From contig JAJRTK010000377.1 in the NCBI GenBank assembly GCA_024278345.1, positions 1 through 8,557 of the forward strand: 8,557 bases of DNA, in the 5' to 3' direction. Position 1 is the stretch's first letter. Each line of letters begins with the position of its first letter. Below the pieces are notes generated by a model that was given only the letters and a program-made list of their open reading frames with translations, was not told where the DNA came from and searched no databases. Made by a program: the position numbers and the translations under genes. Below, piece after piece: positions 1-8,557 of this stretch. This DNA comes from a bacterium (GTDB taxonomy: Bacteria > CSSED10-310 > JAJRTK01).

Positions 1-171
1 CGCTCGGCGGGTCACGTTTGCGTGAGTCGAAGGTCGGCCGGGAATTGTAGCGTGCGGGCCTTCTGGCCCGCACGCATCGGGTTTTGCCCTGCACTCACCA
101 GGGAGCCCGCTCATTTCCCGTTGCAACTTGCGGGCAACGGGATCCCTACCCACATTTTTGTGCGCTGCGCG
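1..171 (+). repeat. Dispersed intergenic repeat, copy 1 (hairpin-rich)
   Basis: This non-coding repeat is cut by the left edge of the window. It matches, in inverted orientation, the copy at 8184-8341. Positions 3-36 match 8308-8341 (minus) at about 30 of 34 bases, and 87-171 match 8184-8272 (minus) with only about ten differences by eye. It contains three hairpins: TCACG/CGTGA (12-16 with 21-25), a perfect 11-bp stem with loop TTCT (50-75), and CCCGTTGC/GCAACGGG (117-124 with 134-141). The last is the core shared with copies 2 and 3 and is followed by GGGATCCC and a CCCACAT box. The middle hairpin differs completely from that of copy 3. The short open frames crossing it are translations of the repeat. 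Its role (mobile, transcriptional or structural) cannot be read from sequence alone. Confidence 0.8.
50..75. other. Perfect 11-bp stem-loop inside repeat copy 1
   Basis: GCGTGCGGGCC (50-60) pairs perfectly with GGCCCGCACGC (65-75) around a TTCT tetraloop. It is the most stable-looking hairpin in the window. It lies about 175 bp beyond the stop codon of the leftward barrel-protein gene at 252-866, so it might end that transcript, but no T-run follows on either strand, so an intrinsic terminator is not supported. Confidence 0.6.
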
Positions 172-251
172 CTTTTATCGGGTGGCCGGTGCCGACCGCA
201 GGGAGAGCCGGCTTCGCCGCTCACCCCCGATGACCGGCCCCAGAAGATCCA

Positions 252-976: not shown

Positions 977-1212
977 TCCCGTGGTCTCCAATCTATCCGC
1001 AGGCTCGAGTTTTGAACCTTGCCCCGGGAATATGCGTCGGCCCACAGCCTACTGATAGCGTAATCCTTGGCCATCGTCCATGTCAGCCGGAGAAGGCCTT
1101 GTCCACCGGTGGTCGGCGGAGCTGGAAAATGGGGTCCAGACGGCCACGAATAGAGATCAGCGGGACTGGCCATCGGTGGTGCCTTCGGCAGCTCTCGCCG
1201 CTGGCGCTCGGC

Positions 1213-1434
1213 CCCGGCCACCCAGTGAATTTCGGACCCAACCCCAGGGCTTCCAGGCCTGGAACCCGGCGGAGGCGGCCTCCATACCTCCGCCAGGAGC
1301 GCTGGTTATGACCTGCGGTCATTATCTCCGCTTCGCTCACGCTACGCTCCGGTTCAGGACCTCGCCAGGGAGCGCGCTCAACTTCCCGTTGCAACAAAGG
1401 GCAACGGGATCCCAGCCCACATCATTGTACGGTG
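1213..1434 (+). repeat. Dispersed intergenic repeat, copy 2 (composite, modules A and B)
   Basis: Two modules can be seen. Module A (about 1213-1303) matches the start of copy 4 at 8436-8525. Both contain CCCCAGGGCTTCCAG, a weak CCAGG/CCTGG-type palindrome, GGAACCCGGCGGAGGC, then CCTCCGC and GGAGCGC blocks. Module B (about 1320-1434) matches copies 1 and 3. It contains CCAGGGAGC, then CCCGTTGC (1385-1392) pairing with GCAACGGG (1401-1408), then GGGATCCCAGCCCACAT and TGTAC. This copy shows that the two modules belong to one element or lie in fixed association. No transposase or coding sequence is found within it. Confidence 0.8.
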
Positions 1435-1645
1435 GGCCTCGCTTATGCTCGGCGTCTCGCTCTGCTCGGCACCGCGTTTTCCTTTTGTTTTCAATCTTTG
1501 TCCCGCCTTACGCGGGTACCCTCAGAAAACGTGCGAAACAGATTACGCGGTCTCCGGAACACTCTCTGCGCAGTTTTCTCCTCGGAATGTGCCGCAAAAC
1601 GGCAAAACATTGACGATTCAGTGAATTCCATTGCCCACGGATTCC

Positions 1646-3731: not shown

Positions 3732-3799
3732 TTTGTCGGCCACTGCGGAACAGGTCGGTGGTTCCTTTGTCGGCCACTGCGGAACAGGTCGGTGGTTCC
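3732..3799. repeat. Perfect 2 x 34-bp tandem repeat upstream of dppC
   Basis: The unit runs from TTTGTCGGCCACTGCGGAAC to its end at GGTCGGTGGTTCC. Copy one is 3732-3765 and copy two 3766-3799, with no mismatch. The second unit ends only 24 bp from the GTG at 3708 when read on the coding strand. Perfect identity suggests recent duplication or continuing homogenisation. The TGT-starting, internally repeated unit loosely recalls the multiple terminal repeats of IS21-family elements, but no transposase genes are present, so this comparison is weak. Confidence 0.9.
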
Positions 3800-3827: not shown

Positions 3828-3849
3828 CGATGGGAGCGGAACACAACCC
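3828..3849 (+). repeat. 22-bp shared motif, copy in the dppB-dppC gap
   Basis: This copy reads CGATGGGAGCGGAA, then CACAACCC, on the plus strand. The reverse complement matches 6880-6901 at 21 of 22 bases, so the two sites are inverted relative to each other. It overlaps the right edge of the hairpin at 3810-3829. Two copies within 3.1 kb, both in leaders of the same ABC gene set, suggest a dispersed repeat or a shared regulatory site. Confidence 0.7.
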
Positions 3850-6879: not shown

Positions 6880-6901
6880 GGGTTGTCTTCCGCTCCCATC
6901 G
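6880..6901 (-). repeat. 22-bp shared motif, copy in the mutY-dppA spacer
   Basis: This is the inverted partner of 3828-3849, with one mismatch in 22 bases. On the minus strand it reads CGATGGGAGCGGAA, then GACAACCC. It lies about 50 bp upstream of the -35 box proposed for the ABC genes, a position compatible with an activator site, though a dispersed repeat fragment is an equal possibility. Confidence 0.65.
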
Positions 6902-8128: not shown

Positions 8129-8183
8129 GGAAACCAATCGAACCACCCCGAAGAAGAAGAAAAGACGCGGAGCGTCAAAAAAA

Positions 8184-8341
8184 CGCGCAGCGTACATAGA
8201 TGTGGGCTGGGATCCCGTTGCTCGCAAGTTGCAACGGGAAGTTGAGCTAGCTCCCTGGTGGGTGCGGGGCAAAGCCCTGCCCGGGGACCGGGGAAGGAAT
8301 CCCCGGACGACCGCCGAGTCACGCAAACGTGACCCGGCGAG
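8184..8341 (-). repeat. Dispersed intergenic repeat, copy 3 (inverted relative to copies 1, 2 and 4)
   Basis: Read on the minus strand this copy has the order of copy 1: CGGGTCACGTTTGCGTGA with its small hairpin, a variable GC-rich middle, CCAGGGAGC, the CCCGTTGC/GCAACGGG stem (8231-8238 with 8214-8221), GGGATCCCAGCCCACAT, then TGTACGCTGCGCG. Its end lies only 55 bp upstream of the mutY start. Because it has no stop in one minus-strand frame, it makes a false N-terminal extension of mutY. Confidence 0.8.
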
Positions 8342-8435
8342 CGGAGCGCGCCGTTGCCCGTAAGCCAAGAAGACGATTGTCTGCTTGGCGTGTACTTTCA
8401 CGGTAACACTCAAGGAGCGGCCTCGGTCATGGTAC

Positions 8436-8557
8436 CGGCCACGGTGCAGATTTCAGACGCCGCCCCAGGGCTTCCAGCCCTGGAACCCGGCGGAGGCTCT
8501 GCCTCCGGACCTCCGCTGGGAGCGCCGCTCCCAGACCCACGCCAGGGAGCCAGCTCC
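8436..8557 (+). repeat. Dispersed intergenic repeat, copy 4 (cut by window end)
   Basis: This copy matches module A of copy 2 (about 1213-1303) from CCGGCCAC onward. It holds three compact hairpins in a row: CCAGGGCT-TCC-AGCCCTGG (8465-8483), CGGAGGC-TCT-GCCTCCG (8491-8507), and the GGGAGCG/CGCTCCC palindrome (8518-8532). The last 22 bases (CCACGCCAGGGAGCCAGCTC) match the beginning of module B as seen in copies 1 to 3. The rest of module B, with the CCCGTTGC stem, probably continues just past the window. Confidence 0.75.

Follow-up and report, generated by a model that had tools for sequence, protein, structure and literature searches.

What kind of element places four partly matching, hairpin-rich repeats in a single bacterial contig of 8,557 nucleotides? 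The window, as this whole stretch is called here, is the entire contig C307 of a MAG of 6.06 Mb (550 contigs, 88% complete). An earlier note, made from the letters of the window alone, had seen in the repeats a mosaic intergenic element, perhaps mobilised in trans like REP or MITE sequences, or acting as a structured RNA. The analysis presented here indicates that they are short, gene-less jumping elements, present by the hundreds in a single genome. More specifically, they are very likely non-autonomous DNA transposons (MITEs) with two classes of terminal inverted repeat (TIR), with internal slots exchanged by recombination, conversion or template switching, with an enzyme most likely of the IS1595/Merlin type, and with a probably selfish way of life.

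All motifs that had been quoted for the four copies are present where they were said to be. Module A is marked by CCAGGGCTTCCAG (at 1244 and 8465) and CCCGGCGGAGGC (at 1265 and 8486); copies 1 and 3 have GGGTCACGTTTGCGTGA, at 9 (+) and 8319 (-). The CCCGTTGC/GCAACGGG stem of module B lies at 117/134, 1385/1401 and 8231/8214, and GGGATCCC at 139, 1406 and 8209. Pairs of copies have 6-21 exact 12-mers in common, against a mean of 0.01 and a maximum of 3 for random window segments; for the pairs 1-4 and 3-4, no exact 12-mer is shared. The copies are real, but their true ends lie outside the coordinates first given to them (Table 1). Copy 4, which had been thought to enter module B, probably does not do so; its last bases, CCAGGGAGCCAGCTCC, match a "short" hairpin form that continues as CTGGACC in relatives. 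Copy 3 lies in the leader region upstream of a mutY-like gene, and no TIR1 or TIR2 is recognisable at its 5' end.

Table 1. The repeat copies of the window (contig C307) and their parts.
Feature	Position	Strand	Description
Copy 1	1..241	+	Cut by contig end; TIR1-type 5' body, long TIR2-type 3' end (TIR1/TIR2 chimera)
Copy 1, slots 4 and 5			Slot 4 hairpin GGGTCACGTTTGCGTGA; variant slot-5 hairpin GCGTGCGGGCC...GGCCCGCACGC
Copy 1, module B2	about 105-150
Copy 1, slot 8	160-172		Terminator-like
Copy 1, right boundary	about 241		Placed by comparison with relatives that carry the long TIR2 variant
Copy 2	about 1165-1521	+	Chimera; long TIR2-type 5' end about 1165-1222, TIR1 3' end
Copy 2, interior			Module A hairpins (1244-1310), variant hairpin, module B1 (about 1365-1420), long slot 8
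Module B stem-loop	1385..1408	+	CCCGTTGC-AACAAAGG-GCAACGGG
TIR1 of copy 2	1499..1521	-	Reverse orientation, 3 mismatches to consensus
Copy 3	8164..8350	-	Slot 4, slot 5, module B2, terminator-like slot 8 (8164-8176)
Copy 4	8419..8557	+	Exact TIR2 (8419-8442), module A hairpins, start of short slot-7 hairpin; cut by contig end

The window holds other repeated sequence as well. Between two peptide-transporter permease genes, a 34-bp unit, TTTGTCGGCCACTGCGGAACAGGTCGGTGGTTCC, is exactly duplicated in tandem (3732-3799). A short dispersed motif, CGATGGGAGCGGAACACAACCC, forms a 22-bp inverted repeat (3828-3849 / 6880-6901, 95% complementary) and is also present in locus L126, as GAGCGGAACACAACCC.

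The genome-wide search for module B gave 85 exact matches to its stem and tail in 6.06 Mb, and none to the reversed pattern. When many copies are read side by side, the majority prove to be bounded by inverted repeats, which the window alone hides. The first end type, TIR1, is a 23-bp sequence, GGGTATCCACGCAAGGCGGGACA, found at 498 ends in the whole genome when up to 3 mismatches are allowed (the control gives 4); locus L185 has perfect 23-bp ends. The second, TIR2 (GGCCTCGGTCATGGTACCGGCCAC, of which a long variant exists), is unrelated to it, and most module A copies have TIR2 ends. Pairing of ends and counting of duplications covered about 1.45 Mb of non-redundant genome sequence, read directly; here, 54 TIR1 and 14 TIR2 pairs lie less than 600 bp apart.

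Flanking duplications, whose presence had been proposed as a check, were found. Exact target duplications of 8-9 bp border 20 of 52 TIR1 pairs and 9 of 13 TIR2 pairs in the 1.45 Mb (29 of 65 together), 2000 random pairings gave none of that kind, and no other duplication length is enriched. In one case, an insertion can be undone on paper. A TIR2 copy in locus L130 interrupts an ISL3 transposase gene, flanked by the duplication GTTCAAGCG; when the element is removed and the flanks are joined with one copy of the 9-bp duplication, the open frame is regained. Inverted ends, 8-9-bp duplications and a restored frame therefore argue for MITEs and not REP elements; together with the hundreds of copies, they bear out the suggestion of a MITE-like mobilisation in trans. 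TIR1 elements measure about 170-360 bp and TIR2 elements about 200-250 bp. Their 23-24-bp ends would have been recognised by a DDE transposase acting in trans, which would also have made the duplications. Selection would then have removed most insertions into genes, leaving the elements intergenic; by gene calls that are a hexamer-based approximation, 44 of the 54 TIR1 elements fall outside genes, a placement shared by 19% of random positions.

About half of the TIR1 pairs have no exact duplication. This fits decay or an exchange of ends, and misassembly may account for such pairs. Elements without duplications average 3.5 mismatches between their ends (of 23 positions), against 2.2 in those with duplications, as expected if ends have been exchanged or have decayed.

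The stretch inside the ends is built as a series of hairpin slots, with conserved blocks linking one slot to the next. Across 173 module occurrences in which three slots were scored, 66 combinations were found (ends counted), and slots 5 and 7 vary almost independently of each other. In TIR2 rows, the slot-5 label GGGGCCTCCGGCCCC nearly matches the module A hairpin, and it was left out of the evidence for sharing. This free recombination of hairpin slots, in hundreds of copies, supports the earlier view of a mosaic intergenic element. The hairpins are evidently exchanged as blocks along the connecting sequences; the route would be template switching at palindromes, or else recombination or gene conversion within so large a set of copies. 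The same exchange would account for the TIR1/TIR2 chimeras, of which window copies 1 and 2 are examples. A bolder alternative, which we consider unlikely, is that the hairpins are themselves mobile units. Here, a dedicated or palindrome-driven process (template switching at cruciforms, for example) would swap cassettes between resident elements at a pace beyond that of ordinary gene conversion, and would do so even across MITE families whose ends are unrelated.

Other sequences have entered these elements, or lie beside them. One and the same slot-7 hairpin carries an insertion of about 250 bp (CTTGTATCTTGTC...GACATTCAAGACAGTTGC), complete in L100:480-740 and represented by its 3' end in L104 near 7469, L130 (minus) near 17895 and L133 near 72. 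In L138:1-661 (minus), a group II intron starts directly after the CCAGGGAGCCAGCTCCCTGG hairpin of a TIR2-type element. Its reverse transcriptase fragment matches TIGR04416 (E 7e-23), under the family cut-off because the contig end truncates it, and its placement resembles that of group IIC introns, which target terminator-like hairpins. A second MITE-like family, GGGACCTATCAAATC...GATCTGATAGGTCCC, occurs in L013, L100, L104, L110 and L146, in several of these nested inside TIR1 elements; another repeat, CCATGAAAGTACATGGTTAAATCCATCTTCGACGGCG..., has inserted repeatedly in or beside TIR1 ends (L188, L172, L180).

So many hairpins might mean that selection on transcript structure maintains these repeats, as structured RNAs or as terminators or attenuators. 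This is quite improbable. Many hairpins in the elements are indeed strong, in slot 8, T-rich sequence often follows a GC hairpin (for example, window 160-172 and 8176-8164), and one element gives a DNA fold z of -8.1, largely from its own TIRs. When stem alignments were compared with shuffles, however, no excess of base-by-base compensatory change emerged in slots 6-7, module B or the TIR2 body, the best-aligned slots among them. Single changes in stems simply break pairs, and the hairpins change as blocks. An excess in slots 3-6 (12 compensatory pairs against at most 8) is read as alternative whole hairpins. Placement shows no bias either: relative to tandem genes, 11 elements have the same orientation and 17 the opposite, and convergent genes are not favoured. 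The window, with 13 terminator-like sites against 9.7 after shuffling, shows no enrichment of them. Rfam gave no match in the window, and only a tRNA in the 138 kb of element-bearing loci. The structured-RNA proposal of the earlier note thus finds no footing here. The hairpins are read here as tolerated cargo rather than selected RNA, within elements that are probably selfish; a terminator effect of slot 8, if there is any, may be incidental.

A mosaic might also be made by the assembler, if short reads joined the wrong halves of repeats. Assembly does seem to struggle at these repeats: element sequence lies within 250 bp of 42% of locus ends, against 8% of random windows, a comparison in which the loci were partly selected for containing elements. 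The elements, being enriched at contig ends, probably help to fragment the MAG. Further, a target duplication was looked for at the chimeric copy 2 of the window and none was found. Whether the junctions are real is least certain for copies 1 and 2, neither of which has a confirming duplication; copy 1 is cut by the contig end. Elements with exact duplications are, however, correctly joined at both ends, and they are mosaic too: these 24 copies hold 17 slot combinations, and slots 5 and 7 show four-gamete incompatibility. The mosaic is therefore not an assembly artefact, or is one with very low probability. Module B1 itself occurs in verified copies of both TIR classes, in L054 and L185 (TIR1) and in L015 (TIR2).

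What enzyme moves these MITEs? An autonomous partner supports the identification of a MITE but is not needed for it, and such a partner may be missing from the assembly. Searches of the genome with PF12762 (IS1595; two truncated matches), PF01610 (ISL3; the interrupted gene and a fragment), PF01609 (one fragment), PF00872 (no match, IS256 being absent) and PF01797 (Y1_Tnp; a single match of 21.5 bits, cut-off 23) gave no transposase with TIR1 or TIR2 ends. The resident IS1595 and the remnants of ISL3 and ISAs1 were rejected as cognate mobilisers, since their ends differ from TIR1 and TIR2. Five long TIR pairs, read as possible autonomous copies (L100, L104, L110, L172, L188), proved to hold nested repeats or ordinary genes and no recognised transposase, and unusual TIR1 inner sequences led to ordinary genes. 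The 1.45 Mb read contains no multi-copy insertion sequence longer than 400 bp.

The resident IS1595-family insertion sequence has a 25-bp TIR, GGCTCTATATGCGATCCAGGGATCT, unlike TIR1 and TIR2. It occurs in L253, L254, L256, L258 and L259, with contigs breaking inside it, and one copy sits inside a TIR1 element. It breaks contigs C88 and C295 of the MAG, so multi-copy insertion sequences are under-assembled there, and those above 1 kb may have been lost. The absence of the enzyme from the bin is therefore weak evidence of its true absence. ISL3 elements also give 8-bp duplications. Terminal GG and 8-9-bp duplications are features of IS1595/Merlin elements (PMC8101967). The repeats have both, which makes an IS1595/Merlin enzyme the most likely one, and an IS1595 transposase occurs in the genome. 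Their membership in that group is putative; the repeats have no ends in common with the resident IS1595, and no cognate element was found. As for REP/BIME-type palindromes moved by a REP-associated tyrosine (Y1/HUH) transposase, these also would be intergenic, palindromic and mosaic, but such an origin is hardly credible given the long inverted ends and the 8-9-bp duplications, and the check for such a transposase returned only the one sub-threshold Y1 gene, which the elements do not frame.

The family is private to its host among the 386 genomes searched. With up to 2 mismatches, TIR1 has 423 matches in the host genome; the 385 others gave two in total, at the control level expected by chance, and viral contigs gave none. 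The search of relatives met no genome of the same family and just seven from the phylum. The only other public match to module B is contig L091 in a Myxococcota MAG, the rest of which has no near-consensus ends; L091 is probably misbinned.

TIMEs, the Tn3-derived miniature elements, have Tn3-type ends and 5-bp duplications, whereas duplications here measure 8-9 bp. They are alike in being miniature TIR elements that form mosaic non-autonomous transposons (PMC4133298). REP/BIME sequences, and REPINs with their RAYTs, are likewise high-copy intergenic palindromes arranged in mosaics (PMC2817692, PMC3116915), but the elements here have long TIRs, target duplications and no RAYT above cut-off. IS1595/Merlin-derived MITEs share GG ends and 8/9-bp duplications, and differ in the TIR of the resident IS1595. 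The closest precedent is the BOX elements of Streptococcus pneumoniae and S. suis, which are modular and MITE-like, with TIRs, target duplications and variable internal hairpins (PMC3049150). In S. suis, two end types (boxA/C and boxE/F) enclose one boxB module (PMC3049150), much as TIR1 and TIR2 both hold module B here. BOX, however, has different sequences and another host, and varies mainly in boxB copy number; the elements here are GC-rich, with 8-9-bp duplications and several slots that each have 2-6 alternative hairpins. What is new with respect to BOX is the multiple slots with alternative hairpins, their free combination certified by duplications, and the scale.

Most of what is known of modular bacterial repeats of the BOX kind comes from a few pathogens. 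Here, a poorly sampled phylum offers a single genome with roughly 250 TIR1 copies (498 ends). Target duplications certify many of these copies, so one can measure directly how hairpin blocks are exchanged and how ends pass from one MITE family to another, unrelated one. For the way in which such elements turn into mosaics, the genome is a good natural example.
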